Below, in pieces: positions 3,620-51,709 of a stretch of DNA of 64,000 bases; within the stretch, counting starts at the first letter, position 1; each line of letters begins with the position of its first letter. Origin of the DNA: Methanoculleus sp. (GTDB lineage: Archaea; Halobacteriota; Methanomicrobia; Methanomicrobiales; Methanoculleaceae). The position numbers were made by a program, and so were the translations under genes. A model generated the notes under the pieces. That model searched no databases. It had not been told where the DNA came from and saw nothing but the letters and a program-made list of their open reading frames with translations. Location of the stretch: contig JAHDQM010000005.1 in the NCBI GenBank assembly GCA_018433835.1, positions 1-64,000 of the forward strand, in the 5' to 3' direction.

Positions 3620-4987
3620 TCATGTTCTTCTGATGCACTCGATTTTCAGAGGCATCTTCCCGATCGCGTGCGTTGCGCATGAGATGCAGGGGTCATACGC
3701 CCTGATGATCATCTCGATGCGGTTTGCCGCCCCTTCGGTCAATGCTCCGTTTTCCACCACCCGGCGTGCCATATCCTCCACACCCCGGTCCATCGCGTAG
3801 TTGTTCTGGCAGGTCGCCACGATAAGGTTGCACCGCTCGATGATTCCGGCTTCATTGACGGTATAGTCGTGGATCAGGGTCCCCCGGGGTGCCTCGACGA
3901 TCCCGACGCCCCGCCGGTTCACGACCGTCCCTGCCGGCGTCCTGATGTCCGAGGCGGTGATGCCGGGGTCAGAAAGCAGCTCGACGGCCCGCTCGCACGA
4001 GGCAATGAACTCGATGTAGCGCGCCAGATGGTAAGCGAGTGCAGCCTGGGTGACGGTGCCGAACCGCTCGCGGTACTCTGCGAGAGCAGCGTCCGCATGT
4101 TCCGTGCCCATCTTCTCCACGATGTTGAGCCGGGCGAGCGGCCCGACCCGGTAATAGTCTCCGCCTTTGAACCGGGCGAACTTCAGATACGACCAGTCCT
4201 CCGAGTACTCCTCGATGGAGTTCGTGTAATCCGGGCCTGAGATCGAACCAATTCTACCTCCGTCCGGGCCGAGCATCGTAGCAGGGCCTTCGCAGGTCGA
4301 GTAGACTCCGTTATTGGCCATGCCCAGGAACCCGGTCTTCACAGCCCCGATCTCCATGTCGACGCCGTCGAGAAGGCCGCGTGCGATCTCCCACCCCTCA
4401 CGGGCGATTCCGAGCGCCTCATTCGCCATAGTAGTCAGTTCAGCCCTCTTTCCTTCCGTGAGCGGTGTCGACATCCCGCCGGGGAGCGCGTTTGCCGGAT
4501 GGATGGGTTTGCCGCCGACCGCCTCCGTCAGGCGCTGACCGAACTTACGGGCCGCGATCGCCTTCTTCGCAAGCTCGGGCGAGTGGCGGGCAAGCCCGAT
4601 GACGTTACGTGTCTCCGCCGGTGCATCGTGGCCCAGGATGAAGTCGGGGGCCGCGAGCATGAAGAAGTGGAGGGCGTGGGAATGGACGAACTGGCCGACG
4701 TTGAGGAGCTCCCGGAGTTTCTTTCCGGTCGCGGGCGGTTCGACGCCGAAGATCTGGTCGGTCGCCTTTGCCGCCGCCAGGTGGTGCGCCGAGGGGCATA
4801 TCCCGCAGATGCGGGGCGTGATCCGGGGTGCCTCCTCGATTGCAGCGCCGATGAGGAACTTCTCAAACCCTCTGAGTTCCACGACCTGGAAGTGGGCCGA
4901 GTCGACTTCTCCCTGATCGTTGAGGTAGATCCTGACGCCGGCGTGCCCCTCGATCCGGGTTACCGGGCTGATTGTGATCTCTTTCAT
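3620..4987 (-). CDS. NiFe hydrogenase large subunit, group 3 (Mvh/Frh-like)
   Basis: The 455-residue subunit carries both nickel-binding motifs: L1 RICGIC at 59-64 (Cys61, Cys64) and L2 DPCISCATH at 432-440 (Cys434, Cys437). The 15 residues after His440 would be removed by a maturation endopeptidase such as the one at 9210-9686. The N-terminus (ISPVTRIEGH) and overall layout resemble MvhA, the catalytic subunit of the F420-non-reducing hydrogenase that feeds heterodisulfide reductase. No MvhD-like or FrhB-like gene is adjacent, so its electron acceptor is not evident. The ATG overlaps the small-subunit stop by 4 nt (ATGA), indicating translational coupling. Confidence 0.93.
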   Translation of the reverse strand: MKEITISPVTRIEGHAGVRIYLNDQGEVDSAHFQVVELRGFEKFLIGAAIEEAPRITPRICGICPSAHHLAAAKATDQIFGVEPPATGKKLRELLNVGQFVHSHALHFFMLAAPDFILGHDAPAETRNVIGLARHSPELAKKAIAARKFGQRLTEAVGGKPIHPANALPGGMSTPLTEGKRAELTTMANEALGIAREGWEIARGLLDGVDMEIGAVKTGFLGMANNGVYSTCEGPATMLGPDGGRIGSISGPDYTNSIEEYSEDWSYLKFARFKGGDYYRVGPLARLNIVEKMGTEHADAALAEYRERFGTVTQAALAYHLARYIEFIASCERAVELLSDPGITASDIRTPAGTVVNRRGVGIVEAPRGTLIHDYTVNEAGIIERCNLIVATCQNNYAMDRGVEDMARRVVENGALTEGAANRIEMIIRAYDPCISCATHAIGKMPLKIECIRRT

Positions 4988-5904
4988 CTGCTCCTCTCCT
5001 TTACCAGATCCCGGATCTTTGAGTTCTCCTTGTCCTCCATGATCAGGCTCCCGATGGTGAAGGCATACATGGTGTGCGCGACGTCGTAGAGCTCCTTCTC
5101 CACCTCTTTTTCAGGCTTATCGGTGAGATCCGAAATTCTGCGCACCATCATGCCGTAGATGTCCCGGCAGGGCTCGCGGAGGATATCGAGCGACGGGCCG
5201 TTGCATCCGTGGCACGGGATGTTGTTTTTGGGGCACGACGCGGCGCATCTCCCGAAGGTGACGCTCCCGAGACAGAGGTAGCCCTGCCCGAGCAGGCAGT
5301 GCTCACGGTCGGGAACACCCTCGTGCCGCCGCTTGAGGGTCCAGTTCTCGACCTGTCCCATTTTCCTGTCGCACTCTGCACAGACGGATTTACGTGAGAG
5401 TTCGAGGGTATCCCCTGCGATCATTGCCGGGATGATCTTCTTCAAGAACGCCTCTTTGGGCGGGCAGCCCGTGACGTAGTAATCGACCTTCACGAGGTCG
5501 CCCACTGCGAACGCCCGGTAGAGGAACGGCGGCACATCCGTCGGGATAACCCCGTCGGGCTTTGTCGTCTCCACTTCCCGGTAGACACAGGAGAAGAGGT
5601 CTTCGCTTGAGTTCAGCATCGAAAGACCCGATACGCCCCCGTAGCAGGCACAGGTCCCAAGGGCAACGAGCGTCTTTGACCGCTTCCGGATCTTCTCGAG
5701 TCGTTCGTGGTTCTCCTCGTTTCGGACTGCCCCGGTCACGAACGCGATATCGATACCCTCGGGAGGCTCCTTGACGTCCATGACAACCGGAGAGTAGACG
5801 ATGTCCGCCTCCGCGACGACGTCAAGGAGCATCTCGTGGAGATCGAGCACTGCAATCGTGCATCCCGAACATCCTGCCAGTTCCTCAATAGCGATCTTCA
5901 TCAT
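4984..5904 (-). CDS. NiFe hydrogenase small subunit, group 3
   Basis: The 306-residue protein begins with the proximal-cluster motif CSGC (Cys12, Cys15), followed by GTCACYGG near residue 95 and YVTGCPP near 155. The C-terminal half adds many cysteines (CAEC, CLLGQGYLCLG, CAASCPKNNIPCHGC), enough for two further 4Fe-4S clusters as in Mvh/Frh-type small subunits. No twin-arginine signal is present, so the enzyme is cytoplasmic. An ATG one codon downstream is an equally possible start. It lies 6 nt after the V4R-like gene and overlaps the large subunit by 4 nt. Confidence 0.92.
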   Translation of the reverse strand: MMKIAIEELAGCSGCTIAVLDLHEMLLDVVAEADIVYSPVVMDVKEPPEGIDIAFVTGAVRNEENHERLEKIRKRSKTLVALGTCACYGGVSGLSMLNSSEDLFSCVYREVETTKPDGVIPTDVPPFLYRAFAVGDLVKVDYYVTGCPPKEAFLKKIIPAMIAGDTLELSRKSVCAECDRKMGQVENWTLKRRHEGVPDREHCLLGQGYLCLGSVTFGRCAASCPKNNIPCHGCNGPSLDILREPCRDIYGMMVRRISDLTDKPEKEVEKELYDVAHTMYAFTIGSLIMEDKENSKIRDLVKERSR

Positions 5905-33230: not shown

Positions 33231-36200
33231 AATTCATCTCCAAATACATGGGGGACGCCAGTGGAAACCGATCGCCTGCGACGTAGAAACTGGTTCATCC
33301 CCACGTACATGGGGAACGCGACCGCGGCCATCAGGATCCCCTCCCGGCGAACGGTTCATCCCCACGTACATGGGGAACGCACCTCGGCGACCGGGAGCGA
33401 CACCGAGAAGACCGGTTCATCCCCACGTACATGGGGAACGCGTATTTGTTGATTCCGCCATCGGCAGACGGGGCGGTTCATCCCCACGTACATGGGGAAC
33501 GCGAATAGGCACAGATGGTAGAGGAGGGAGAGATCGGTTCATCCCCACGTACATGGGGAACGCTTCGATTAGATTTCCGAAGATTTTCCGGATTTCGGTT
33601 CATCCCCACGTACATGGGGAACGCATTTACTGATGATGATATATTTTACATTCCTCCGGTTCATCCCCACGTACATGGGGAACGCGTTCCTCGATACTGG
33701 AAAAGACCGTTTTAACGCGGTTCATCCCCACGTACATGGGGAACGCAAATTCTTGCTGGATTTTGACTTTGATTTGTTCGGTTCATCCCCACGTACATGG
33801 GGAACGCCGGGCTGCCTGGCAGAACCTGGAGCGGCCGGCCGGTTCATCCCCACGTACATGGGGAACGCCTGAACCGGCTGGAGACTCAGGAACTCAACGC
33901 CGGTTCATCCCCACGTACATGGGGAACGCCCATGTTTTTCACCTCACATCTCAGTTTTTCTCGGTTCATCCCCACGTACATGGGGAACGCGGATGCTGCA
34001 GTTCATCGACCCGGCTACCGGCCGGTTCATCCCCACGTACATGGGGAACGCCTGTTCGCCAGCGACGAGGATCGGAAGGCAATCGGTTCATCCCCACGTA
34101 CATGGGGAACGCGAGGTATGCTCGATGGAGACGTTCGGTCCGATCGGTTCATCCCCACGTACATGGGGAACGCGGTGATGGCGAAAAACTCCCGATACGT
34201 CATTTCGGTTCATCCCCACGTACATGGGGAACGCGAAGTTGCCCCCGGCAATAGCCCAATTGATAACGGTTCATCCCCACGTACATGGGGAACGCCCATT
34301 ACGCGGACTCCACCGGAACCCGTTTCTCGGTTCATCCCCACGTACATGGGGAACGCCTATGTCAAACTGCACCCGCCCCATGGCCTGTCGGTTCATCCCC
34401 ACGTACATGGGGAACGCGCTTGCCCTCGACCATCTTCTGGCTGAAGGTCGGTTCATCCCCACGTACATGGGGAACGCGGCTGCTCTTTCACTGGCTCCTG
34501 GGGGGAGGCCGGTTCATCCCCACGTACATGGGGAACGCAACCCGAGCGACTCGTAGTTCCCCAAGTTGATCGGTTCATCCCCACGTACATGGGGAACGCG
34601 GATCGTCGCTCGCAAGGAGTTGACTACCGGTCGGTTCATCCCCACGTACATGGGGAACGCACCTGCCGCAAGGCCTCGTAGACGTTGTCGGCCGGTTCAT
34701 CCCCACGTACATGGGGAACGCTGCAGCAGGCGCAGGTCCCCTTCCTCCTCGACCGGTTCATCCCCACGTACATGGGGAACGCCGGAACACGCTGGGCTGC
34801 CATTCAGGCATTCGCGGTTCATCCCCACGTACATGGGGAACGCCTCGATACGCAATCGTGGAACCAGCAGATGTTCGGTTCATCCCCACGTACATGGGGA
34901 ACGCAAGGCCTGGGGATCGAGTGGCCCGACCTCGACCGGTTCATCCCCACGTACATGGGGAACGCGGGAGGACCCAGTCTCCGCCGGCATTCCGGACCGG
35001 TTCATCCCCACGTACATGGGGAACGCCTCCGGATCGTCGATCGAGTAGTTCTTGGTATCGGTTCATCCCCACGTACATGGGGAACGCGCATTTTTGGGCG
35101 TATTGCTCCCACCTGGTGGCGGTTCATCCCCACGTACATGGGGAACGCGTCTCGATCTCGTCTTCGATCGTCTCGGTCGACGGTTCATCCCCACGTACAT
35201 GGGGAACGCGCCGCAAGTTAGGCATGGATCCGCTCTTGTGACGGTTCATCCCCACGTACATGGGGAACGCTTGGTTCCGATTTTCCGGAACCAGAACTCT
35301 TTCGGTTCATCCCCACGTACATGGGGAACGCTCCACCTCATCAGCCCCGGGACCAACTAGGGCCGGTTCATCCCCACGTACATGGGGAACGCAATCTCTG
35401 CGATTGCCTTAAAAATTGGGTAAACGGTTCATCCCCACGTACATGGGGAACGCCCCCGCCGGATCGTGCTCCCACACTGGGGGCACGGTTCATCCCCACG
35501 TACATGGGGAACGCGCAGCCGCCTCCTCTGTCCTCAACTGGACATACGGTTCATCCCCACGTACATGGGGAACGCACCCCCGTGAAGAGCATCACCAAAC
35601 ACACGACCGGTTCATCCCCACGTACATGGGGAACGCGATGATGCCAGGGATCGCGAAGCAGGATGAAACGGTTCATCCCCACGTACATGGGGAACGCGTC
35701 ACAATTAACGCTATCAGGGAGGCAGTATCGGGTTCATCCCCACGTACATGGGGAACGCGCAGCCGTTAGACTCGGGAGATGTTCGGTTGCAGGTTCATCC
35801 CCACGTACATGGGGAACGCCGACCTGCCCGGCCTGTCATGTGACGGTGTACCGGTTCATCCCCACGTACATGGGGAACGCACGATCAAAGTGGTGATGTC
35901 GGCCACGTTCCCCGGTTCATCCCCACGTACATGGGGAACGCCGTTTCGGTGTCCGCGAGTCATCAGGGACTGGCGGTTCATCCCCACGTACATGGGGAAC
36001 GCTAGGTCGGAACCTCAGCACTCACGGAACTGTCCGGTTCATCCCCACGTACATGGGGAACGCCTGCGCTTCTGCGCGTTGGAGAGTTCCGGGCTCGGTT
36101 CATCCCCACGTACATGGGGAACGCTCGAGGGGGCCTCGCCTTACGTCGCCGTGGTGCGGTTCATCCCCACGTACATGGGGAACGCGCGGCGTCGCCCTGT

Positions 36201-39200
36201 GCGTCGGTCGTGGCGGCCGGTTCATCCCCACGTACATGGGGAACGCTGCAAGCAGGTCGTCGGGGCCGGGACATCTGCCCGGTTCATCCCCACGTACATG
36301 GGGAACGCGTCGCGCATTATAGCGACATACATCGAATTTACGGTTCATCCCCACGTACATGGGGAACGCCGTCGGAATTTCTACCCAATAATCGCCAGCG
36401 CCGGTTCATCCCCACGTACATGGGGAACGCTTGACGAATTTTCCCTTAATTCTCTGGAAAACCGGTTCATCCCCACGTACATGGGGAACGCCAGGTTTCG
36501 CTTAGGTCATCCCGTGACCCTGACGGTTCATCCCCACGTACATGGGGAACGCAAGGCTTTTCCATCGCGGGATTCGCTTTTCGCCGGTTCATCCCCACGT
36601 ACATGGGGAACGCTTCAACGGAATTAAAAACGCCGCGCCAAGTGCCGGTTCATCCCCACGTACATGGGGAACGCACTATCGACGGCGCTTTGCCGGTCGA
36701 TTGAATCGGTTCATCCCCACGTACATGGGGAACGCCTCCTATTTTTGCTTCTCTCTAATCCAGGAGACGGTTCATCCCCACGTACATGGGGAACGCTTGA
36801 GAATTATCACTATCTGTTAACAGATGTTCGGTTCATCCCCACGTACATGGGGAACGCATTTAATCACTCACTCCTAAATCCCATTTTTCCGGTTCATCCC
36901 CACGTACATGGGGAACGCAACATTGCCGCACGAGTAGCAGAGCAACCCGACGGTTCATCCCCACGTACATGGGGAACGCCGTTTAACTTGATGGATTTAT
37001 CTATTGCCTGCCGGTTCATCCCCACGTACATGGGGAACGCCAAAAACCTATAACCGTAAAAAAAGTTACCAACGGTTCATCCCCACGTACATGGGGAACG
37101 CTATTCCAGTCACTAGATTTATGGAGGTAGTGACGGTTCATCCCCACGTACATGGGGAACGCTGAGGTTGTCAATGAATCTCTCCCCAGTGGCACGGTTC
37201 ATCCCCACGTACATGGGGAACGCCCACCGAAAATTGCAAGCGGAATGATGATTTTCGGTTCATCCCCACGTACATGGGGAACGCGATATTTTCTACGATT
37301 CGCAACGCTATACCGACGGTTCATCCCCACGTACATGGGGAACGCTATTAAATCTCCTGATATATGCTCTATTAGGTCGGTTCATCCCCACGTACATGGG
37401 GAACGCTTCCGTTATCATTATGACCGAATCCCTAATGTCGGTTCATCCCCACGTACATGGGGAACGCCGACAAATCGTAATATAGATACAATTCTCTTCC
37501 GGTTCATCCCCACGTACATGGGGAACGCGATCGCCCACGCCCGCAAAGAGGCCCGGGAGACGGTTCATCCCCACGTACATGGGGAACGCCTCGGGAGGCT
37601 CGGGAGGCTCGGGAGGGCGATCGGTTCATCCCCACGTACATGGGGAACGCATCGATGATCTCGGCCTCGGCGTCTTCGATCGCGGTTCATCCCCACGTAC
37701 ATGGGGAACGCATGAAGATCCGATCCTGCGATCCCTGCTTGATCGGTTCATCCCCACGTACATGGGGAACGCTTAAAATCCCCTCCTCTGCTCCTCGGCT
37801 CGCTCGGTTCATCCCCACGTACATGGGGAACGCATACAAAGATGCGGGAGGTTGGTAACACGAATCGGTTCATCCCCACGTACATGGGGAACGCGTTCGC
37901 AGTGCCGCCGATCTGGAATCTCGTGCAGGTTCATCCCCACGTACATGGGGAACGCTTGATACCAGTTGCGTTTGTTTTCGCATGCCACGGTTCATCCCCA
38001 CGTACATGGGGAACGCGGCATAATGTTTTGTCGCATTTTGGATACATTCGGTTCATCCCCACGTACATGGGGAACGCATTCTGTTTTAAACCGAAAATAA
38101 TTAAAAATACGGTTCATCCCCACGTACATGGGGAACGCTTCTGAAAGTCCGGCATTGTATTGTGCCGCAACGGTTCATCCCCACGTACATGGGGAACGCC
38201 CCACGACTGTTTTGATGGGGGCGGGGGCGTCCGGTTCATCCCCACGTACATGGGGAACGCGCTCCGTCCCGGGTCTGGTGCACGGTGTCGACCGGTTCAT
38301 CCCCACGTACATGGGGAACGCATATCGGTATAAGAAAAATCGGAAAGTGTCCCCGGTTCATCCCCACGTACATGGGGAACGCAAGGACGCCGAAGTTTCC
38401 CCGATTTCCAGCGACGGTTCATCCCCACGTACATGGGGAACGCTTTCTGTATGTTGAGGGCATAATGTTTTGTCGCGGTTCATCCCCACGTACATGGGGA
38501 ACGCTGCATCGGTCACCGCGGCAATAATTTTATTGTCGGTTCATCCCCACGTACATGGGGAACGCTTGAACATTCGCGCCAATTACGTAATGATGTTCGG
38601 TTCATCCCCACGTACATGGGGAACGCGGACGGTCTTTTATACCAACAAGTTTGTTGACCGGTTCATCCCCACGTACATGGGGAACGCGTTTTGAAATTAA
38701 TGCATATGAAACAAACTCCCGGTTCATCCCCACGTACATGGGGAACGCGAATAGGTGACGAAAGGTTGCCGTCATTATCGCGGTTCATCCCCACGTACAT
38801 GGGGAACGCTCTGATACCACAACACGATAATAAAATGTTTTCGGTTCATCCCCACGTACATGGGGAACGCGTAATGTCGGCCGCCGATGCCACGGAAATG
38901 GTCGGTTCATCCCCACGTACATGGGGAACGCCTCTTCTCTTTTCACAAATAAATTTGATGATTCGGTTCATCCCCACGTACATGGGGAACGCTCCATTGT
39001 TTATAGTTCCGTCAATAGCATTATCGGTTCATCCCCACGTACATGGGGAACGCCTTTGAACTCCAGCAGGCACTTTTGCATGTGGCGGTTCATCCCCACG
39101 TACATGGGGAACGCATCGATATAAACCTAAAACGGCGTGTAGAGTTCGGTTCATCCCCACGTACATGGGGAACGCTTGCCGCGCGTGCCGTCTTTGCGGA

Positions 39201-42200
39201 TCTTGCGCGGTTCATCCCCACGTACATGGGGAACGCTACCGGGAGCGCACGAGCATGATCCTGGAGATCGGTTCATCCCCACGTACATGGGGAACGCAGC
39301 GCCGACCAGGAGACGGATTTTGAGGAGGTCGGTTCATCCCCACGTACATGGGGAACGCTTTGTGCTGCATGTCGCTGTAACTCCTATGATCGGTTCATCC
39401 CCACGTACATGGGGAACGCACCATCACCGTTGCGGTCGCGGCAGCGACCATCGGTTCATCCCCACGTACATGGGGAACGCCTTCGTGGCGACCGTTGCGG
39501 CGAATGCGGATGCGGTTCATCCCCACGTACATGGGGAACGCGGTGTCGCGGGTGCGGCGTCATTTTTCGCCGCCGGTTCATCCCCACGTACATGGGGAAC
39601 GCCGGAGGACTCGACCGCCCGCCTGCACCTGTGCCGGTTCATCCCCACGTACATGGGGAACGCTTTTCCTGCGCTTGTTTCACCGACCATGTGATCGGTT
39701 CATCCCCACGTACATGGGGAACGCGTGCTGCAGGATCGGCGGGAATTTGACCTCGACGGTTCATCCCCACGTACATGGGGAACGCGCCCTTGTCCCCGCC
39801 ACCCCACCGGCGGAACGCGGTTCATCCCCACGTACATGGGGAACGCGGTCGGGTTGTAGCGCCAGTCGGGGTAGTAGGCGGTTCATCCCCACGTACATGG
39901 GGAACGCCTCGTCGCGGTCAGCGGGCTGCCGGATATGATCGGTTCATCCCCACGTACATGGGGAACGCTCAGCGAGAGCGGAGAAGGCCTTCGCGAGTTC
40001 CGGTTCATCCCCACGTACATGGGGAACGCGCAGGTCTCTCCACCGGTGACGCTATGACGCTCGGTTCATCCCCACGTACATGGGGAACGCGCGCCGAGTT
40101 TCGCGAGATACTCGGCCTCAGTCGGTTCATCCCCACGTACATGGGGAACGCGCATTCGGGTTCTGCACTTTTGTCTGGAAAGTCGGTTCATCCCCACGTA
40201 CATGGGGAACGCTGACCGGGATCGTGCCCTTGTCATCGGTCTTTGCGGTTCATCCCCACGTACATGGGGAACGCCCGTTGGCGTCACAGATCAGCGACGT
40301 GGCGAGCGGTTCATCCCCACGTACATGGGGAACGCCTCGACCACCTGCGCCTCGCCCGGTGCAGCTCCGGTTCATCCCCACGTACATGGGGAACGCCCGA
40401 ACTCGTTGTCGGTCGCGCCCTTCGCGAACGGTTCATCCCCACGTACATGGGGAACGCCCGGCCGGGACCGTGAGCCCGAACTCGTCGTACGGTTCATCCC
40501 CACGTACATGGGGAACGCGGCGAAAGGGTGGAGAGGTCGATGATCTCGACCGGTTCATCCCCACGTACATGGGGAACGCTTTGCCGCCGCGTTCGATGCT
40601 GCCGATCTCCACGGTTCATCCCCACGTACATGGGGAACGCCAGTTCACGGAGTGAGCCACCGACACCGCCCTCGGTTCATCCCCACGTACATGGGGAACG
40701 CATGTTCTCGAGGAGGGTGCGGAGCGGAGTAGTCGGTTCATCCCCACGTACATGGGGAACGCTCAACACCCGTAACACCCGTAACGGCGTAACACGGTTC
40801 ATCCCCACGTACATGGGGAACGCTCCGGGTGGGAGACGTTGCCCGGTGGATCCCCCGGTTCATCCCCACGTACATGGGGAACGCATGCTCCGGGTCTTGA
40901 TCCGCTTCTGTCGTTCCGGTTCATCCCCACGTACATGGGGAACGCGGGCTCTACCCGCTCGTCTAATGCGAGTCGTGCGGTTCATCCCCACGTACATGGG
41001 GAACGCTCCGGGTGGATACCATCCACGCGAGCAAAGGCCGGTTCATCCCCACGTACATGGGGAACGCGCCGCCACGAGTGCGAAGGGGCGAAGATCCCCC
41101 GGTTCATCCCCACGTACATGGGGAACGCGCGTGCACCACAGAGACGTAGCGGCGCTCGGCCGGTTCATCCCCACGTACATGGGGAACGCTGTCGGTACTG
41201 GAGGGCCGGCAGCCCGGAACGCGGTTCATCCCCACGTACATGGGGAACGCGCCGGGAGTATCGGCGGCGGCGGAGGGCAGAGGCGGTTCATCCCCACGTA
41301 CATGGGGAACGCTTAACGATTCTTCCCACCTTAACAAACTGAGTCGGTTCATCCCCACGTACATGGGGAACGCCGGACGGCCTCGAATATGGCACCGATC
41401 GCGCTCGGTTCATCCCCACGTACATGGGGAACGCGCGTACGGGAACCCTCGTTTCAGCGTGACGATCGGTTCATCCCCACGTACATGGGGAACGCGCAGG
41501 CGGGCTGATGCTCAAGACCGCGACGGACGGTTCATCCCCACGTACATGGGGAACGCTGTCTTGTCGAGCGTATAGGGGGTGCCGATGAGCGGTTCATCCC
41601 CACGTACATGGGGAACGCCGGCGCTCACTCTGCCTGATGAGGCGGCCGGCCGGTTCATCCCCACGTACATGGGGAACGCCGAAAGGAAGTGACTGAGTTC
41701 AACCGCGACGCCGGTTCATCCCCACGTACATGGGGAACGCCAGGAGTTCGTAGTGGTCGAGGACCGCGACGACGGTTCATCCCCACGTACATGGGGAACG
41801 CACTCCCGCCCTGACCGCCAGATCATAGATCACCGGTTCATCCCCACGTACATGGGGAACGCTTGCTAGCCGTAACACCCGTAACACTCCCTCTCGGTTC
41901 ATCCCCACGTACATGGGGAACGCGGGGGGGGCGGCCCAGTCCCTGTGGTCCCACCGCGGTTCATCCCCACGTACATGGGGAACGCCGGCATCCGAGTCTG
42001 CCGAAGCGATGCGGTATCGGTTCATCCCCACGTACATGGGGAACGCACCCCATACAGAAGAATGTTCGCAACTGGATGCGGTTCATCCCCACGTACATGG
42101 GGAACGCCGAAAAACCCGTCGCCGCTAAAGGAATTTCTACGGTTCATCCCCACGTACATGGGGAACGCCGGCATTTTCGGTTACCAGTCTATCCAGACTT

Positions 42201-42412
42201 CGGTTCATCCCCACGTACATGGGGAACGCTATCAATCTTATTTATCGGAAGATAAAAATGCCGGTTCATCCCCACGTACATGGGGAACGCTTTCAACATC
42301 TTTTCAAAAGTGCGTATATACGCGGTTCATCCCCACGTACATGGGGAACGCATTCATAACATCTTCTCCGGTTTTGGCTGTTTCGGTTCATCCCCACGTA
42401 CATGGGGAACGC
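33231..42412 (-). CRISPR. Type I-E CRISPR array: 150 intact repeats plus one decayed end repeat
   Basis: On the plus strand the 28-nt core begins GGTTCATCCCCAC and ends ATGGGGAACGC. I traced its start at 33292, 33353 and onward to 42385: 149 steps, of which 143 are 61 bp, five are 62 (starts at 36281, 40247, 41285, 41591, 41958) and one is 60 (34450). The base before the core is C in all but four cases. A decayed copy with 6 of 28 mismatches lies at 33231-33258, exactly 61 bp before the first intact one. Transcription runs on the minus strand, where repeats start GCGTTCCCC and end GATGAACCG with a CCCCA/TGGGG stem. The leader is therefore at the cas2 side and the oldest spacers are near 33 kb. 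Confidence 0.98.
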
Positions 42413-42520: not shown

Positions 42521-43772
<1,252 letters not shown>

Positions 43773-43781
43773 ACGTCCTCC

Positions 43782-44468
43782 CTACCGCATTGCCGGCCGC
43801 ACCATTATCAGCCCGCAGCCAAACCCTTTCGCAGGTCCTATCCCGCCAAAGAGAGCGGCTTTGAACCTATCCGGATCGACAACCGTGAGGATGCCCGTAT
43901 AGTCGATTGTGCTGAGGCTGATCTCGTGCCGCCCTTTGCGCTTCCGGAACCGCCGCTGGATATAGCCGTCTGCGCGGACGTCACCCGCTGCCACCGAAAA
44001 ACCGTTCGCCTCGCCCTTCATCGCAAGCCATGCAAACCCTGCCTGCTGGACGATCTCCGGCTCCGGTGGCCATTCTTCCCTGGGCACGCCCTGCTGTTTC
44101 AGCCGGGTCTTCGCCTCCATCACTACGTCGTGGCGGTGGTGCTTTCCCTTCTCGTCGCACTTCGTCCGGATTGGATTGGCACAGAGCACGAACGCAAGCT
44201 GTTGCCCGGAGCGAAGGGCAGGATCATAGGGCTTCGTCTCGATCGTCCACATCCCGCCCCGGTTCACCGGCTCACGCTGGCAGACCGAGTAGATCGTGGG
44301 CAGCCCTTCGGCCTCCTCCACCCGGTAGAGAAAGTCCCGCTCCCGATCGGGGCTATCGGTGAAGAGGTCCCAGACCATATGGTGCGCCTGGTACTCGCTT
44401 CCCATCACCTGCCAGAACTCACGTTTCCCGGCCGCATCGGGCCGGAGCCGTATCCTGCTCAGGTACAT
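43782..44468 (-). CDS. cas6e: CRISPR RNA endoribonuclease Cas6e
   Basis: From the ATG at 44468 the protein has 228 residues. The catalytic region is SEYQAHHMVWDLF (Tyr26, His29/His30) and the C-terminal glycine-rich loop is GIGPAKGFGCGLIMV, which grips the repeat hairpin. It cuts below the repeat stem, leaving an 8-nt 5' handle, and stays on the crRNA as a Cascade subunit. The start overlaps the cas5e end by 10 nt; a longer frame reading into cas5e was rejected. Confidence 0.95.
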   Translation of the reverse strand: MYLSRIRLRPDAAGKREFWQVMGSEYQAHHMVWDLFTDSPDRERDFLYRVEEAEGLPTIYSVCQREPVNRGGMWTIETKPYDPALRSGQQLAFVLCANPIRTKCDEKGKHHRHDVVMEAKTRLKQQGVPREEWPPEPEIVQQAGFAWLAMKGEANGFSVAAGDVRADGYIQRRFRKRKGRHEISLSTIDYTGILTVVDPDRFKAALFGGIGPAKGFGCGLIMVRPAMR

Positions 44469-45208
44469 GGCGATCCACTCCCGGACATAACGCCGTAATG
44501 CTCGGCCCGGCTCCCGAACTGCCACCGCTTCCGGCTCAACGGGTTATCGTACCGGAGAGTCGTCTGGATCGCCGGGATCCCGACGTCCTGATCGCCTTCC
44601 CAGAAGACCCGCAGGTCGCCGTGGTGAAGCAGGCCCCGTAGCAGGTCGTCATCGGGGAACCGCACCGCCGAGAGCGCGGCCGCAAGATTCTCTCCGGCAA
44701 CGACCTGTGCGTGTACCGGGAGAGCGAGCGGGCAGGATTTCCTGCCGAGATACAGGACGAACACCGGGCGATTCAGAGCGTTTGCCAGATCTTCCAGCGA
44801 GTAGGGGGCCGACCCGGACCCCTGCCAGATGCAGACCGTCGACACGGCATCGCACCGGTAATCCCGGGTGGAGAGCACCGTCGAGAGATTCTCGCGGGGT
44901 ATCGCCAGTTCCTCTCTCCGGGTTGCAAACGAGTGCTTCTTTCTTCCCCTCCCTGCAGGCGGAATCTGGGACGTGTGATAGTCCCGTAGCAGCACCCCGG
45001 GCGCATCTACCCGAATCGCCATCTGATAGGCGTTGGAGAGCGCGGAGAGCCGCTCCTCCTCGTCACGGCGGATCCCGAGCGCCGCCGCGAGCAGCCCGAA
45101 GATAGCGGATCGGGACGGGTGATCGGAGGTCGGGCGGGACTCCCCGACGGCGATATCGCCCCACGATGCCATCATGCCATACAGGCGAAAGGTGAGGAAC
45201 TCATGCAT
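44459..45208 (-). CDS. cas5e: Cascade subunit Cas5e
   Basis: The 249-residue RAMP protein starts MHEFLTFRLYGMMASWGDIAVGESR (in parts FLTFRLYGMMASWG), the conserved Cas5e opening, with RPTSDHPSRSAIFGLLAAALG following. It caps the 5' handle of the crRNA. It overlaps cas7e by 8 nt and cas6e by 10 nt. Confidence 0.95.
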   Translation of the reverse strand: MHEFLTFRLYGMMASWGDIAVGESRPTSDHPSRSAIFGLLAAALGIRRDEEERLSALSNAYQMAIRVDAPGVLLRDYHTSQIPPAGRGRKKHSFATRREELAIPRENLSTVLSTRDYRCDAVSTVCIWQGSGSAPYSLEDLANALNRPVFVLYLGRKSCPLALPVHAQVVAGENLAAALSAVRFPDDDLLRGLLHHGDLRVFWEGDQDVGIPAIQTTLRYDNPLSRKRWQFGSRAEHYGVMSGSGSPCT

Positions 45209-46304
45209 GTTGACCCGCCACGAAATTCAGGACCTCTTGCAGCGTTCCTTCGCCGGCGTAAGCGTTCATCTCACAACAGGCGTCACTGCAGTTCCCGTAT
45301 ACGGCATCCATCTTGTCGTGGGTCTCCTTCAGCGCTCTGATAGCGCTCCCGAGCAGGTCGTTGTCCTGCAACGGTTTCAGGTATGCAACCGAGAGCGAGC
45401 GGGGCTGCTGGCATCCCTTCTCTGCGAGCAGGTATGATGCGTACGCCCGTGACGCAAAGCTGTTCTGCTTGCCGGTCGGCGCAACTTTTGCTGCCGCTTC
45501 GACAAGGGCACGGAGGGCAGCCCCGGTGAGCGCTTCGTCGTTGCCCAGGTTCTTGTGCAGCAGATCGCGGTTGACGCAGACATAGAGGTAAAAGAGTCCG
45601 GATGCGAACTCCGTCTCCCCGAGGTGTCCGGCACCCATATCCTCATCGCCCAGGTTGAGGTCATCGACTGCCGTGAAGTAGTCGTCTTCGACTGCGACCG
45701 AATGCACGGTGACCGCGTGGGAGACCTGCACCGCCGCCTCTGTGTTGTAGATTGGAGAAGCTGCCAGCATACGGCCGAACATCGCGATATCTGCCGCAGT
45801 ATGCCGCTCCATTAGGAGCATTTTGTCGTTGTCGTCGGGGTCGGTCCCGGTGGCTGCCTGTTTTGCGATCAGTGCGTCGATAGCAGCGATCTCCTCGGGG
45901 CTGAAGTGGGCGAGCTGTTCGATCTCGAGGGCTCCCTCACCGGCTTTCAGTTTCCCAAAGCCGCTGGCGATCTCCGCGGCCCACTTCCGGGCTTTATCCT
46001 CGGCGACAGGCTTGAATGCGACAGGTGCGTCCCGGTTGCCCTGAAGGATCTCCGCAAGGCTGACGCCCGACGTCAGGGACCGGTAAATCAGTGTCCCCAT
46101 CTCCTTTGTCCTGATGCCGAGGTGCCCCGCGAGTGTGTTGGCAAAGATATCCGACGTCCTCCAGGCCCTCTTCAGGCTCTGCGACGAGACGCGCAGGCGC
46201 TGGACGCCGCCCATCATGGCAGTCTTGGGTCTGCCGAGGTCGTCACGGTTCAGGTTCGACGGCGGATACGATACGAGCATGTGTAATTGAATAAATTCAC
46301 TCAT
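45201..46304 (-). CDS. cas7e: Cascade backbone subunit Cas7e
   Basis: The 367-residue protein begins MSEFIQLHMLVSYPPSNLNRDD (in parts LHMLVSYPPSNLNRD), followed by GGVQRLRVSSQSLKRAWR, both strong Cas7e hallmarks. Six copies wrap the guide in E. coli Cascade and kink it so that every sixth base is flipped out. A GGAGG ribosome binding site precedes the ATG. Confidence 0.96.
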   Translation of the reverse strand: MSEFIQLHMLVSYPPSNLNRDDLGRPKTAMMGGVQRLRVSSQSLKRAWRTSDIFANTLAGHLGIRTKEMGTLIYRSLTSGVSLAEILQGNRDAPVAFKPVAEDKARKWAAEIASGFGKLKAGEGALEIEQLAHFSPEEIAAIDALIAKQAATGTDPDDNDKMLLMERHTAADIAMFGRMLAASPIYNTEAAVQVSHAVTVHSVAVEDDYFTAVDDLNLGDEDMGAGHLGETEFASGLFYLYVCVNRDLLHKNLGNDEALTGAALRALVEAAAKVAPTGKQNSFASRAYASYLLAEKGCQQPRSLSVAYLKPLQDNDLLGSAIRALKETHDKMDAVYGNCSDACCEMNAYAGEGTLQEVLNFVAGQHA

Positions 46305-46321: not shown

Positions 46322-46828
46322 TTACGCTTCATTCGGGGCTTTGTCATAGTAGTCAAACGCCCAGGTGTTCTTCGTCCTCTCATTCCACCAGTAGACTCCG
46401 TCTGCAAGGCTTGCAATGTTCACGGAGCCATCAAGCAGCCGGATTATCCGGATCACCGCACCGTACAGGTCGTCGCGGTCCTCGATCTTGAGCAGTCGCC
46501 GGAAGCGCAGCCCGCTCACCCGGGCACGGTCACTGCCGTTCTTCGGTGTCGCCATCTGCTGGGCGAGCCGGAGCGAATAGTCGTTCTTCTTGACGTGCGA
46601 AAGAATCCCGGCCACCGCTGCAAGTTTTTCAGCATCCACTGGGGCAATTCCGGAGAGGTTCTGGCGCAGCTGGTGGAACGCCGGGACAAACGCGACCTCC
46701 TGGCTGCTCCGGCAACGCCGGAGCGCCGCCCGATCTCCACGGGCATGATCCAGACCCGCCCACCAGTCGATCAGGACCGATCTGGTGTCTGGATTGTTCA
46801 TGAACGAAATATAATTCATCTGTTTCAT
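46322..46828 (-). CDS. cse2: Cascade small subunit Cse2 (Cas11e)
   Basis: The 168-residue helical protein contains DWWAGLDHARGDRAALRRCRS near the start (in parts WWAGLDHARGDRAALRR) and RFRRLLKIEDRDDLYGAVIR in the second half, typical of Cse2. It stabilises the R-loop. It starts 6 nt after the cas8e stop with AGGTGA as binding site. Confidence 0.93.
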   Translation of the reverse strand: MKQMNYISFMNNPDTRSVLIDWWAGLDHARGDRAALRRCRSSQEVAFVPAFHQLRQNLSGIAPVDAEKLAAVAGILSHVKKNDYSLRLAQQMATPKNGSDRARVSGLRFRRLLKIEDRDDLYGAVIRIIRLLDGSVNIASLADGVYWWNERTKNTWAFDYYDKAPNEA

Positions 46829-46834
46829 GGGTAT

Positions 46835-48460
46835 TCACCTTGTACTTACCGAGCGCTTTCGGGTTCCCCTGGGCTTTGCATCGCCATCGTCAGGACCTCT
46901 GGGGAGGTCGAGCGCATCGCGGATCTTCTTGTTTCTCGGTGAGGTGTAGTTCCTGAGCATGCGCTGGGACAGGGCTATCCTTCGCGGGTCCGCGACACCG
47001 ATGAGATCGGCCTGGGAATAGACCTTGAAAAGTTCCTCGGCCTCACGGGAGAGGCTCGAAAGCCACTGCAGTTTCAGGGCGGTTGTATCCTCACCCCTCT
47101 CCATCGCCTCCCGCAGTGCCTCCAGCACAGCGTAGAACTCACTCTCCGTGTCTTGCCAAAACCGGGAATCGACCTCGGGGATATTCCCGCCTGCGTCCTT
47201 TCGGTCCCCGAAGAGTGCTTTTCGGATGCAACTGCGGGTGCTCACTGCGACGAGATCAGCGGTCTTGAGAAGTGCCGTCACGACCCCTTCGTACTGCTCA
47301 CGAACCGCCTCGCCGACATGGAGCAGCGGCATCGTGCTCTCGTTCCAGCAGATTACCTTCATGTTGTCCGTCTTGTACCCGAACGCCCAGAGTGGGGCCG
47401 AATAGCCCAGGTAGTCGGTCAGATTGCGCTGCCGCTCGTTCCGGAAGACCTGAACCGCCAGTGCCGGCTGTGTGCGGCTTTCAGTATCATTCTGCACAAG
47501 CCCGAGCCAGTTCCGGTACGCTATCCCGTCCGCCTGCCCGTGCTTCGGGAGAGGTTCTTCGGCGTTCTTCGGCTGATAATACGGCGTGAGCGGGTGTTTC
47601 CAGGCCCCTTTGTAGTTCACCCCGCCATCCTTCGTGGAGTACTTGGAGACAAGAGTCTCCGAAGCACAACCGCAGATATCGCACCTTCCCGACTCTGGGT
47701 GATCTAGGTCGACCCGGATCCTGCGGGGCATGGAAAAGAAGATCTGTGCCGGGTGCACGTCGGTAGGAGCCGTAACCTCGTTTCTGGTGCTTGTGCGGGT
47801 AGGCCCCATCCAGGGGAACCGATCGGGGTCTGCGGTTTTTGCTGCGTTGCCGAGGATCTCGAATTGATCCCGGGGAAGGACGTTCAGCCAGACGGTCTCC
47901 CACAGGGTTGTGCCCATGACCAGTGTGGTCAGCGGCCCTCCGCCCCGGAGCGATGTCCGATGCCCCCGGCCGCCGGACGGAGCGTTTGTCTGGAGCGTAA
48001 AGAGAGCCATTGCGCAGCATGACCGGCAGATATGGTTGACCGTCCCTCGCTTCAGAAAATGGTCGGTGTTCAGTTTCAGCGTCTGTTCTCCGGGCATCTC
48101 CATGAGCATCCGGTCTACGGAGCTCTCGACGCCCTCGTTGAGGTCATAATCCTGCATAAACCGCGGCCCTTCGCCATCGAAGTTGAAAGCATGGGCATAC
48201 GGTGCAAAAGCATTTTTCAACTCGTGGGGAGGTGGTGGAGTCTTAAACTTCCTCCTCCAGTCCCGGTTGTCACCGGGGGGGATTGCCGTCTGCACAAGGC
48301 CGATGAGGAACTGGACAAGCGCCCCGTTGAAATCGGGTCGGGGAGCATCCAGCCGGATCACGGGCTCGGTTCCCCCGGTAATCTCCCAGGGGGCGATGGT
48401 TTCCCGTGTTCCGTCCCTTCGCACGACGGATATCCATGGATCATCGATGAGATTGACCAT
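46835..48460 (-). CDS. cas8e: Cascade large subunit Cas8e (Cse1)
   Basis: The 541-residue protein starts MVNLIDDPWISVVRRDG and has the family segments FLIGLVQTAI, FMQDYDL, NTDHFLKR and a CDICGC metal-site-like knot near residue 260. It reads the PAM and recruits Cas3. It is the first gene of the seven-gene Cascade/adaptation operon. AGGTGA precedes the ATG. Its promoter at 48577-48583 is the apparent target of the mini-CRISPR guide. Confidence 0.95.
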   Translation of the reverse strand: MVNLIDDPWISVVRRDGTRETIAPWEITGGTEPVIRLDAPRPDFNGALVQFLIGLVQTAIPPGDNRDWRRKFKTPPPPHELKNAFAPYAHAFNFDGEGPRFMQDYDLNEGVESSVDRMLMEMPGEQTLKLNTDHFLKRGTVNHICRSCCAMALFTLQTNAPSGGRGHRTSLRGGGPLTTLVMGTTLWETVWLNVLPRDQFEILGNAAKTADPDRFPWMGPTRTSTRNEVTAPTDVHPAQIFFSMPRRIRVDLDHPESGRCDICGCASETLVSKYSTKDGGVNYKGAWKHPLTPYYQPKNAEEPLPKHGQADGIAYRNWLGLVQNDTESRTQPALAVQVFRNERQRNLTDYLGYSAPLWAFGYKTDNMKVICWNESTMPLLHVGEAVREQYEGVVTALLKTADLVAVSTRSCIRKALFGDRKDAGGNIPEVDSRFWQDTESEFYAVLEALREAMERGEDTTALKLQWLSSLSREAEELFKVYSQADLIGVADPRRIALSQRMLRNYTSPRNKKIRDALDLPRGPDDGDAKPRGTRKRSVSTR

Positions 48461-48518: not shown

Positions 48519-48544
48519 GTGCGACCGGAACGAAACGAGTACGA

Positions 48545-48584
48545 CAATGTTCAAGGCATTATTCTTTGTAGGATACCTTATACT
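48545..48584 (-). promoter_or_regulatory. cas8e promoter and apparent target site of the mini-CRISPR guide
   Basis: The minus strand reads AAGTATAAGG (48584 to 48575), an archaeal TATA box about 117-123 nt before the cas8e ATG, with start of transcription near 48555. The last AAG of TATAAG (48579-48577) is also a perfect type I-E PAM. Immediately after it, from 48576, the sequence GTATCCTACAAAGAA matches the guide GTATCGTACAATGAA of the mini-CRISPR at 51648 in 13 of 15 positions, with differences only at 6 and 12. A Cascade footprint here would cover the TATA box and the start site. Confidence 0.8.
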
Positions 48585-48671
48585 TTTCCCTCGGGACGTT
48601 CTAATTCACTCGTTAGGTATCAAAGAAGAGGATATGGCTTGAAGAAGAAATCAGGTCCATATTAAGGAACA

Positions 48672-51383
48672 TTATGGCCTCCCATCCCGGATCTGCAGGC
48701 CGATCTTCGGATCGTAGGTGACGATCACCTCGTTCTCCTTTTGATTCTGTGCGCGCCCCTCCCAAAACCCATCTGCGGTGAGGGTCAGAGAGATAAGGAT
48801 GCTTCCTTCCCCCCTGCCGGGCAGGAGCGGTTTTATACGCGCGACCTCACGCTCTTCAGCTCCGGAATAATGTGCAGGGCCTGCTATCCAGGACTCCCGG
48901 ACCGAGACCTGACTTCTTCTCCAGGCATCCTCTCCCCCCTCGCTCCACGGTCGGAGTTCGGCTCCGTCCCAGCGGGCCAGCACAACGGTGACGCTCGCTT
49001 CGCCGAGCCTGGTCGGTGTCCGGCTATCGTCCTCCCACTGGCCGTGCAGGTCCGCATACCCTGCTTGCGGCCGCAGCGCGTTTATCTGCGCCAGTGCTGC
49101 GTGCCCCCTGTCTTTTCCGTCTGCCTGTATCTCCCAGACCTTGAGGGTCTCGGGAACGGATGCCTGTGCCCTATCGCCAAAGACGCCTTCGATCAAAAAC
49201 CGGGCGTCATGGGGCATCGCGATTTGTCCCCGGGCTGCAAGCAGGCGCGCGGTGAGCCAGAGCTGCCCGTGTTTCTCGTATACTCGTCCTGCTCTGGGGA
49301 AGACGCTCGTAAACCAATCTCGTGCTGGAATTTCAACCGGAGGAGGAGAGAGGACCAGCAGGGTGGGCGTTGCAGCTGACCCACTCCTCCTCTCCCGGTG
49401 CCGGTGCAGTCTCCCGGCCCGCTGGATGATCAGGTCGATGGGTGCGAGGTCCGTAACCATCGCATCAAAATCGATATCCAGCGACTGCTCGACAACCTGC
49501 GTTGCTATCAGTATCTTCCCGCTGCGGTCGGTATCCGTACTCTGCTTCCCGAACCATGCCAGCACATCATCCTCAATTCTCTGACGGTCCCCAACAGTGA
49601 ACCTGGCGTGAAAGAGCTTGACGTGTTCGTCACCCCACCGTGCGGCGAGGCGCTTGTATGCCTCGATTGCGTCGATGACGGTATTCCGGATCCAGCAGGC
49701 GCACCGGCCTTCCCGAATAGCGCGCTCAAGGTAGGATTCTACATCGGCTTCACTGCTGGTGAGTTCAACCGTAACAGTCCTCCGGGAAAGGGAATCTGCC
49801 TGCATCGGCATCTCTTCCACGCCCCGGGGAGATACTATGGTCATCAGGGGAGGGTCGGCCTCGTGTATCGGCGTTGCCGAGACCCGGAGGCCTGAGCAAT
49901 AAGCGGAAACGAACCGCTCCCGGAGTTTGATAGGAAGCGTCGCCGAGAGCAGGATTGCACTGCCGCCAAAAGCCGCGTGGAACTGTAGCAGCCGTTCAAG
50001 AAGACCATTCATATACTCGTCGTAGGCATGCACCTCGTCCACAACGAGCACATGCCGGGCGAGGCCGAGCAGGCGGAGCGACTGGTGGTGGAGCGGCAGC
50101 ACGGACATGAGTGCCTGATCTATGGTGCCGACGCCGACATCGGCGAGGAGGGCTTTTTTTCGGTTATCCGAGAGCCAGGCTGCACACTCGGCTGATCCCG
50201 CATCTTCCTCAGGAGGGAAGATCTTTCTGTCGGTTTGCGGGCCGATTGACTGGCGCCAGAGGTTGGAAAGGCTCCTCGCGCTGTGGGCGAGCAGAAGCGA
50301 GGGGTGTTCACCATCCCGGAAAAACTGCCGGTATTTTTCTCCGAACCGCCTGTACATGCCGTTTGCGGTTGCCATCGTCGGTAGCCCCATGAAGATGCCT
50401 TCGGCAGACCCCCGTTCCATGAGGCGGTGCGTCAGCGCGAGTGCAGCCTCTGTCTTTCCGCTCCCGGTGACGTCCTCAACGATGAAGAGGTAGGGGCCGT
50501 CGGTGAGTTCGTAGTCGGCGACGGCTTCCTGCAGAGGTGTCGGGACCGCGTTTTCCGGAAGAAGGGACGTTATCCCCGGGAAGGTGGCGACGGCGGACGG
50601 CAAGACACCTGCCCTGGCAACCGCCTCTTTCGCCCTCGGGACGGCGTAGCGCTGCCAGTACTCCTCAAGGGGCACCATGTCCTGGTGATACCGGAAGATA
50701 TCGGCGTCCGAGCCGATCCAGTCGCTCACAACAGCCAGTCCGGCGATCAGCCAGGATACACGGGTGAAGGACTCATGCAGATCCGTTGAAAACCTGACCG
50801 GCTCTTCCGGATCTTCTGAAAGAAACAGATCCGAGCAGGCCCGGGCGAACTCGCATGCAGCCTCCCGGTCCATCGGGCCGAAGAGATCAGGGAGTGTGCC
50901 GCTGTCGGTGACGGGCTTCCCGTGATGGCCTGTCACCGCCCGTATCCAGGGGAGGAAGAGATCCTCCAGATCACACGAATCCTCGTCGGGGTCTGTTCCG
51001 AACCAGTTCTCGTCCAGCACCAGCGGCCACACTTCTCGTACGAAGACAAGCATGCCCATCGTTGTATGGTGGTGGCTGTATGGCATACTGCAGGCAGTGC
51101 CCCGGAGGCGCGACTGGAGGGTGGCGTTGATGCCCTGAAAGCGTTCGGAAAATTTACCGATATCGTGGACGGCAAGGAGGAACGTGATGAGCGAGCGGAT
51201 GTACTCGTCCCGGAGAGGGACCGCTCCGACAGTCTTCCGGAACAGCTGGGGGTCTTTGAGCAACTCGTTACCGACCGCTGCGACATCCAAGCAGTGATAG
51301 ACGAGCAGGTGCCATGCAAGGCCGTCCCCTGTATCGTACTTCCCCCAGTAGCGGTAGATGATATCGGTTTTGGGCGGATCCAT
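48672..51383 (-). CDS. cas3: CRISPR nuclease-helicase Cas3 (type I-E)
   Basis: The 903-residue protein has a N-terminal HD nuclease domain (His25/His30, HD at 73-74 in AVHDIGKF, HHHTT at 104-108, GHHGK at 152-156). A superfamily 2 helicase follows, with Walker A TGSGKT 306-311, DEVH 449-452, SATLP and QRAGRLHRH, plus a C-terminal accessory domain. It degrades DNA exposed by Cascade. It is not fused to another Cas protein. The gap of 211 bp to cas8e holds a separate promoter, so cas3 and Cascade can be expressed independently. Confidence 0.97.
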   Translation of the reverse strand: MDPPKTDIIYRYWGKYDTGDGLAWHLLVYHCLDVAAVGNELLKDPQLFRKTVGAVPLRDEYIRSLITFLLAVHDIGKFSERFQGINATLQSRLRGTACSMPYSHHHTTMGMLVFVREVWPLVLDENWFGTDPDEDSCDLEDLFLPWIRAVTGHHGKPVTDSGTLPDLFGPMDREAACEFARACSDLFLSEDPEEPVRFSTDLHESFTRVSWLIAGLAVVSDWIGSDADIFRYHQDMVPLEEYWQRYAVPRAKEAVARAGVLPSAVATFPGITSLLPENAVPTPLQEAVADYELTDGPYLFIVEDVTGSGKTEAALALTHRLMERGSAEGIFMGLPTMATANGMYRRFGEKYRQFFRDGEHPSLLLAHSARSLSNLWRQSIGPQTDRKIFPPEEDAGSAECAAWLSDNRKKALLADVGVGTIDQALMSVLPLHHQSLRLLGLARHVLVVDEVHAYDEYMNGLLERLLQFHAAFGGSAILLSATLPIKLRERFVSAYCSGLRVSATPIHEADPPLMTIVSPRGVEEMPMQADSLSRRTVTVELTSSEADVESYLERAIREGRCACWIRNTVIDAIEAYKRLAARWGDEHVKLFHARFTVGDRQRIEDDVLAWFGKQSTDTDRSGKILIATQVVEQSLDIDFDAMVTDLAPIDLIIQRAGRLHRHRERRSGSAATPTLLVLSPPPVEIPARDWFTSVFPRAGRVYEKHGQLWLTARLLAARGQIAMPHDARFLIEGVFGDRAQASVPETLKVWEIQADGKDRGHAALAQINALRPQAGYADLHGQWEDDSRTPTRLGEASVTVVLARWDGAELRPWSEGGEDAWRRSQVSVRESWIAGPAHYSGAEEREVARIKPLLPGRGEGSILISLTLTADGFWEGRAQNQKENEVIVTYDPKIGLQIRDGRP

Positions 51384-51588
51384 AGCAATAAACGTTCATA
51401 TCAAGGTTGGAGAAGATAGGTCTGCCGATTTGAAAAACCTCTTCAGCGGCCTATTTTTCCCGTAACAGTCAGTCGGACAGAGGATACGGAGTCCTGCTCG
51501 CCCAAGTATACCCTCTAGGATTGTAACTGCGGCTATCTTTTCTTGGGATTATCCGGTCAGAAAGAGAAGGAGAACCTGTCGCCGGTGC

Positions 51589-51677
51589 GGACTATCCCCA
51601 CATGATGGGGAACCTGAAAAGCCAGACGGCTGTTTCATTGTACGATACAGGTTCATCCCCACATGAATGGGGAACAA
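51589..51677 (-). CRISPR. Orphan mini-CRISPR: two decayed repeats and one guide
   Basis: The repeat-like elements start at 51589 and 51650, exactly 61 bp apart, the period of the main array. The upstream element in transcription (51650-51677) matches 23 of 28 core bases, and all changes lie outside the CCCCA/TGGGG stem and the 5'-handle ATGAACC. The second (51589-51615) has lost one loop base and differs at its far end, but keeps the stem, so Cas6e could still recognise both. The guide runs from 51648 down to 51616 (33 nt) and starts GTATCGTACAATGAA on the minus strand. Its final repeat base is T instead of G. Confidence 0.85.
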
Positions 51678-51699: not shown

Positions 51700-51709
51700 A
51701 ATATATAAT
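51700..51709 (-). promoter_or_regulatory. TATA box of the mini-CRISPR
   Basis: The minus strand reads CGATTATATATTGG, with the TATA centre about 26 nt upstream of 51679. Transcription would therefore start at the edge of the first decayed repeat, as expected for a stand-alone crRNA-like RNA. Confidence 0.7.

Follow-up and report, generated by a model that had tools for sequence, protein, structure and literature searches.

The type I-E CRISPR-Cas locus of this Methanoculleus sp. raises the question of whether the single guide of a miniature CRISPR directs Cascade to the promoter of Cascade's own operon, or whether the resemblance between guide and promoter has another origin, such as a protein-binding site, a decayed self-targeting spacer, the silencing of a neighbouring toxin, or chance. 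The locus was analysed within a stretch of 64,000 nucleotides, referred to here as the window, and compared with its counterparts in related genomes.

All type I-E cas genes and the array, located with profile models and a repeat search, lie on the minus strand of the window. The cas3 gene (48672..51383), in which the cas3 core and HD domain models exceed their cut-offs, stands upstream of cas8e (Cse1/CasA; 46835..48460; TIGR02547, 3.7e-94). The latter leads the Cascade operon and is followed by cse2 (46322..46828; TIGR02548), cas7e (45201..46304; TIGR01869), cas5e (44459..45208; TIGR01868), cas6e (43782..44525; TIGR01907), cas1e (42861..43772; TIGR03638) and cas2e (42521..42880; TIGR01873). 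The main array (33291..42412) comprises 150 repeats and 149 spacers; by eye, its last good repeat is followed by a degenerate terminal repeat at 33236-33262. With cas3, cas8e, cse2, cas7, cas5, cas6e, cas1, cas2 and I-E repeats all present, the type I-E set is complete. Between cas3 and cas8e lie 211 bp, inside which a BRE/TATA-like sequence, GAAAAGTATAAG (48577..48588, minus strand), forms the predicted core of the cas8e promoter.

For comparison, homologues of cas8e were sought across the class and found in 42 of 232 genomes. From these, 40 loci including that of the window were taken, one per genome, excluding G132 and G206, which held fragments alone, and two more fragments of G023. The closest cas8e genes (84-90%) belong to loci L021, L010 and L022, and all three of these orthologous loci carry a mini-CRISPR upstream of cas3.

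In the window, the mini-CRISPR lies outside the main array, upstream of cas3 and before a phosphate/sulfate permease-like gene (model matches below the curated cut-offs), which is the kind of location reported for CreR elements. The whole element occupies 51677-51587 on the minus strand and consists of two repeats and one spacer. Repeat 1 (51649..51677) folds into a hairpin (-13.6 kcal/mol, z -3.3) and ends in the 5' handle ATGAACCT, nearly identical to the main-array handle ATGAACCG. The spacer follows (51616..51648), 33 nt long within a range of 32-33 nt that is the same as in the array, and its putative regulatory guide begins directly 3' of this handle with the seed region GTATCGTACAATGAA (51648-51634). 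Repeat 2 (51587..51615) retains a hairpin (-10.2 kcal/mol, z -1.6) and has a degenerate handle, ATAGTCCG. Hairpins were obtained from all five mini-CRISPR repeat sequences folded, with z below -2 in just three of them; in repeat 1 of L010, a C-G pair of the stem is replaced by U-A and the hairpin is retained. In an alignment of the four loci, the handle of repeat 1 is mostly conserved and that of repeat 2 varies, as would be expected if the 5' handle came from repeat 1 only. Furthermore, a TATA-like sequence, ATTATATATT (51700..51709, minus strand), is found about 23-32 nt ahead of repeat 1. Since ATATA occurs at the same aligned spot in each of the four loci and extends to TATATA in three, a dedicated promoter for the mini-CRISPR is probable.

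The initial annotation had described a match of 13 in 15 bases between guide and cas8e promoter, with mismatches at positions 6 and 12 only, and this match was re-found at 48576-48562 on the minus strand. Guide positions 1-15 and the promoter copy GTATCCTACAAAGAA (48562..48576) are identical at every position except these two, so that the 13 positions expected to pair in Cascade (1-5, 7-11 and 13-15) all agree. The proposed PAM, AAG, could likewise be placed within the TATA box: it occupies 48579-48577, immediately before the promoter copy, and forms the end of the TATA-like GTATAAG, itself preceded by GGAAAA as judged by eye. Over the rest of the protospacer (48544..48561), identity is at chance level (6/17 at positions 16-32). 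The claim that the match decays past position 15 held for the window; in its relative L010, the match continues to position 21, save 18.

Uniqueness was assessed first within the window, where the 15-mer with up to two mismatches was found twice, at the guide itself and at the promoter (mean over 100 shuffles, 0.00). Across the 63 contigs of the genome (2.94 Mb), AAGGTATCNTACAANGAA was found once, at the cas8e promoter; the 13-base pattern GTATCNTACAANGAA twice, once in the promoter and once in the mini-CRISPR; and the combination of seed and AAG, AAGGTATCNTACAA, once, again at the promoter. The genome-wide count proposed by the annotation therefore came out in favour of its claim, and no equal or better match turned up elsewhere. 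With a looser query, an 18-mer with three mismatches, eight places were retrieved, including promoter and mini-CRISPR, against ten for the reversed control. The nearest other site, GAGGTATCTTACAAAGCA at C4:3600-3617 (G000; L110 1501-1518), contains the full seed, agrees at 12 of 13 positions and carries the PAM GAG. E. coli-like PAMs comprise AAG, ATG, AGG and GAG; by our own arithmetic, about 0.2 sites of 12/13 beside such a PAM are expected per genome. The site falls just within the start of a long ORF that, by eye, resembles a membrane protein and adjoins a pilin-like ORF. It is possibly a side target of the guide, or a product of chance.

The existence of such a site, where an unrelated ORF begins, might lend some colour to the view that the promoter match is itself fortuitous, and this view was examined with two controls. 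In the first, 200,000 random guides of similar composition were scored over 260 nt upstream of cas8e; one reached the window's 13/13 beside any PAM and none beside AAG. In the second, 1,542 array spacers from 31 loci were used without regard to PAM, one of which was dropped because its start was like that of a mini-CRISPR guide, leaving 1,541. None of these scored above 11/13 against the region upstream of the window's cas8e, and among the window's own 149 array spacers the best, a single spacer with PAM GTC, also reached 11/13. Array spacers of ten other loci scored between 11 and 13 of 13 when compared with the sequence upstream of cas8e in the same locus, including one 13/13 match in L064 with PAM GGG. 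Because ordinary array spacers can reach such values, a match score carries little weight by itself, apart from PAM, phase and conservation. The relatives make the case stronger than a bare match.

In all four loci, the guide is partly complementary to the locus's own cas8e promoter, seed first, as in reported CreR elements; AAG stands beside the target, which begins at -114 to -116 relative to the cas8e start codon. The BRE/TATA-like core reads GAAAAATATAAG in two of the orthologues and GGAAGGTATAAG in one. Conservation of AAG is not independent evidence, since TATAAG would be conserved as promoter anyway. Beside AAG, each guide agrees with its own promoter at 13 of 13 positions in the window, 12 in L021, 12 in L010 and 11 in L022. 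Random guides beside AAG attained the observed score at frequencies of 5e-6 for L021, 0 for L010 and 2.7e-4 for L022, and, regardless of PAM, the true guide's score was equalled by 0/1,541 array spacers in L021 (12), 1/1,541 in L010 (12) and 6/1,541 in L022 (11). Locus L022 is the poorest fit of the four (11/13; p ~3e-4 beside AAG), and by random guides with any PAM its p value is 0.011.

The guides begin with GTATC in the window and L021, ACATT in L010 and ATATC in L022, and the promoters vary in parallel. Positions 1, 2 and 5 have changed jointly in guide and promoter, with no uncoupled change within positions 1-5; uncoupled mismatches occur at position 9 (L022), position 10 (L010) and position 15 (L021 and L022). 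When the four loci are pooled, 48 of 52 Cascade-paired positions are identical, compared with one of eight at positions 6 and 12 and 22 of 68 at positions 16-32. Among the 24 possible permutations of guides over promoters, the true pairing scores 48 and is tied solely by the exchange of the two loci that share their first 16 guide bases; the next-best permutation scores 44. This pattern of matches is what would be expected under selection for pairing in Cascade. The four loci are related, and the number of independent changes among them is small. With the fit beside AAG repeated in three relatives, two of which have different guides, the covariation rules out a chance match for practical purposes, and we regard that explanation as vanishingly unlikely.

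The same alignment bears on two further readings. According to one of them, GTATCNTACAANGAA is the operator of a protein regulator, placed before both cas8e and cas3 and unrelated to crRNA pairing. Its exact occurrence twice in the genome, both times in cas-linked intergenic regions, would suit such an operator, and joint variation of positions 1, 2 and 5 in both copies argues against it. An operator would also leave several details of register unaccounted for: in all four loci the match begins at the first base past the 8-nt crRNA handle, AAG precedes the promoter copy only, with CCT or CCG before the other copy, and the window's mismatches sit on the very bases that Cascade does not read. 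We consider an operator very unlikely. The other reading holds that a spacer was once acquired by accident from the host promoter and is now a decayed, functionless self-targeting relic. The self-match is indeed partial, the spacer has the 32-33 nt length of array spacers, and canonical arrays lie upstream of cas3 in L024, L067, L068, L076 and L077. Yet decay should strike the seed as readily as the remainder, and the paired positions are preserved (48/52 versus 22/68 at positions 16-32) with compensatory changes. A functionless relic is accordingly improbable to much the same degree, and may describe the origin of the element rather than its present state.

On that origin, the five loci just named carry ordinary arrays with a degenerate last repeat, upstream of cas3 and near the place of the mini-CRISPR. 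Because ordinary arrays occupy this similar place, the comparison suggests that the mini-CRISPR is a remnant of a second array. The wider distribution of the element was surveyed by a repeat search at a setting stricter than four substitutions, a level at which noise prevailed, and each row of the output was assessed manually. Beyond the close clade, a fitting mini-CRISPR was found in one of 36 loci (L050); of the 36 contigs, 11 either lack the start of cas3 or begin no more than 430 nt upstream of the gene. When the mini-CRISPR region served as a DNA query against 35 genomes of the genus, most of it aligned in G000, G030 and G003 only; this search missed the copy in G023, and the other matches inspected were ordinary-array repeats.

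Locus L050 (G214) belongs to another family of the order. Its two-repeat mini-CRISPR, at about 4853-4940 (minus strand), lies upstream of cas3 on the opposite strand. Between its guide and the opposite strand of the sequence upstream of cas8e, 12 of 13 paired positions agree, with PAM ATG (p ~3e-4, any PAM), and within positions 1-18 the mismatches are at 8, 12 and 18 only. The sequence is unrelated to that of the window and the geometry is alike on the other strand, which again speaks against an operator. Among 108 genomes of that family, the mini-CRISPR region matched four, namely G214 itself and three that by their place are ordinary-array matches. Because conservation was not found in these 108 genomes, L050 is suggestive only, as a candidate second, independent-looking CreR-like case.

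The use of AAG by the system was approached through protospacers. A search with 46 of the 149 window spacers against the 232 genomes matched four genomes, the window's own array among them. Subsequently, 1,542 spacers of 31 loci were compared, at a threshold of at least 24/32, with three matched stretches that had been picked since window spacers match there. The 12 protospacer matches carried the PAMs AAG (4), CGG (3), AGG (2), ATT (1), ACG (1) and GGC (1); NGG thus accounts for five of 12. A single spacer that matches on two contigs gave two of the CGG rows, and the sole perfect match has AGG. Since AAG is found on 4/12 matches, its place among the PAMs used by the window's type I-E system is supported, in line with the initial annotation. 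Locus L108 (a 5.2 kb contig of G017) is matched by eight window spacers at 25/32 or better, on one strand only and in one case perfectly with AGG; by eye its ORFs resemble phage head genes. The viral contigs contained no exact match to the handle-plus-guide pattern. On viral contig L084, a lone type I-E-like repeat at 4968-4993 recalls RNA anti-CRISPRs.

The cas8e promoter is the best guide site anywhere in the window. Upstream of cas3, the window's guide reaches at best 9/13 (PAM ACC), and over the four loci each locus's own guide reaches 8 to 10 of 13 beside the neighbours ACC, GAA, GGT and CAA, which was judged to be chance. A second guide, following repeat 2, was also considered and had no above-chance target upstream of cas8e or cas3 (best 10/13, PAM AGA, in L010). 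These comparisons bear on the proposal that the guide silences an adjoining toxin, as in CreTA, with the likeness to the cas8e promoter incidental. The build of the mini-CRISPR, with its degenerate repeats, is indeed like that of CreTA. In CreTA the guide targets an adjacent toxin promoter; between mini-CRISPR and cas3 no above-chance site was found; the three intergenic ORFs of at least 25 aa all cross repeats, as judged by eye, and the best site in the window is that of cas8e. The probability left to a toxin-silencing element is practically negligible.

The reading preferred here is that the mini-CRISPR is very probably a CreR-type element, with guide-loaded Cascade as repressor of the cas8e operon. 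A short transcript would arise from the mini-CRISPR's own archaeal promoter, as the TATA-like box before repeat 1 suggests, and Cas6e would presumably cleave both repeat hairpins, yielding one crRNA to be loaded into Cascade. This complex would then read AAG in the cas8e TATA box and base-pair with the promoter through guide positions 1-5, 7-11 and 13-15, with bases 6 and 12 expected to stay out of pairing. Comparable rules are reported for CreA, where positions 1-5 and 7-11 of the guide are required, positions 6 and 12 tolerate any change, and the PAM lies within the complement of the promoter BRE (PMC8501985). Promoter-bound Cascade would be predicted to obstruct TBP/TFB or polymerase, thereby reducing cas8e-cse2-cas7-cas5-cas6(-cas1-cas2). 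As the region upstream of cas3 holds no above-chance guide site, repression would fall on Cascade and the genes downstream of it. Cas3 recruitment is described as coming after R-loop locking, once the R-loop has extended to the PAM-distal end (PMC9718816). By analogy with E. coli Cascade, the R-loop should stay unlocked and Cas3 should not cleave, because pairing stops near position 15; a match ending there should allow binding without cutting. Repression would be lifted when free Cascade is scarce, when the 149 ordinary spacers compete for it, or when an anti-CRISPR inactivates it.

A broader evolutionary picture can be offered as a possibility, though as a whole we incline somewhat against it. 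Guide and cas8e promoter would evolve together as lock and key, diverging from one species to another, as the three coupled seed changes in four genomes would indicate; with the PAM in the TATA box, loss of the PAM would harm the promoter; and methanogens would have evolved this design on two or more occasions and with opposite orientations, a second array formerly upstream of cas3 being a possible source. If the lock-and-key reading is true, a foreign mini-CRISPR would be unable to repress a cas operon after its transfer. The covariation record indicates that guide positions 1-5, 7-11 and 13-15 are under selection, and not 6 and 12. It gives in-genome support to the Cascade pairing rule and yields exact, testable mutations. 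In addition, the arrangement suggests that large arrays, here of 149 spacers, may adjust the level of cas expression by competing for Cascade.

Several known systems offer points of comparison. Cas9 autorepression acts through long tracrRNA, and haloarchaeal CreTA systems are of type I-B. Shmakov et al. 2023 (NAR 51:8150) reportedly described regulatory mini-arrays whose spacers show partial complementarity to promoters of cas genes, of cas8 especially, and these resemble the present one in that the spacer partly matches a cas8 promoter. With Cas9 autorepression and its relief by anti-CRISPRs, as mentioned in a review (PMC13131331), the proposed mechanism shares an effector that lowers its own expression and a release by anti-CRISPRs; Cas9, in contrast, is of type II, employs a different RNA and involves no mini-CRISPR. 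CreA of CreTA (PMC8501985, PMC9458426) is similar in its degenerate two-repeat mini-CRISPR, in pairing through positions 1-5 and 7-11 with 6 and 12 free, and in a PAM within the archaeal promoter core (BRE). The targets differ, as the window's guide, from a type I-E system, is directed at the cas8e promoter whereas CreA addresses a toxin promoter.

The closest counterpart is CreR, a cas-regulating RNA derived from mini-CRISPRs according to Liu et al. 2023 (Cell Host Microbe 31:1481), as cited in three reviews (PMC13131331, PMC12737573, PMC12948488), two of which describe CreR autorepression for types I-B, I-E and V-A and its release by anti-CRISPRs (PMC13131331, PMC12737573). The likeness consists in a crRNA-like element that belongs to a cas locus and is partly complementary to the promoter of cas genes, and in type I-E being among the reported types; Cascade as repressor, released by competing crRNA or an anti-CRISPR, would be a further shared feature. 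The literature search, whose reach ended before the locus tables of Liu 2023 and Shmakov 2023, returned no earlier report for Methanoculleus or its group. Against the CreR elements so described, the window's system stands apart as an archaeal type I-E system with its PAM in a TATA-like box and with covariation of guide and promoter across four genomes. The evolutionary evidence for a CreR-type element in the window is unusually clean. The principle of autorepression is already published, and the placement of the window's mini-CRISPR as a further, predicted archaeal type I-E member of the CreR type, accompanied by comparative evidence, is well supported.
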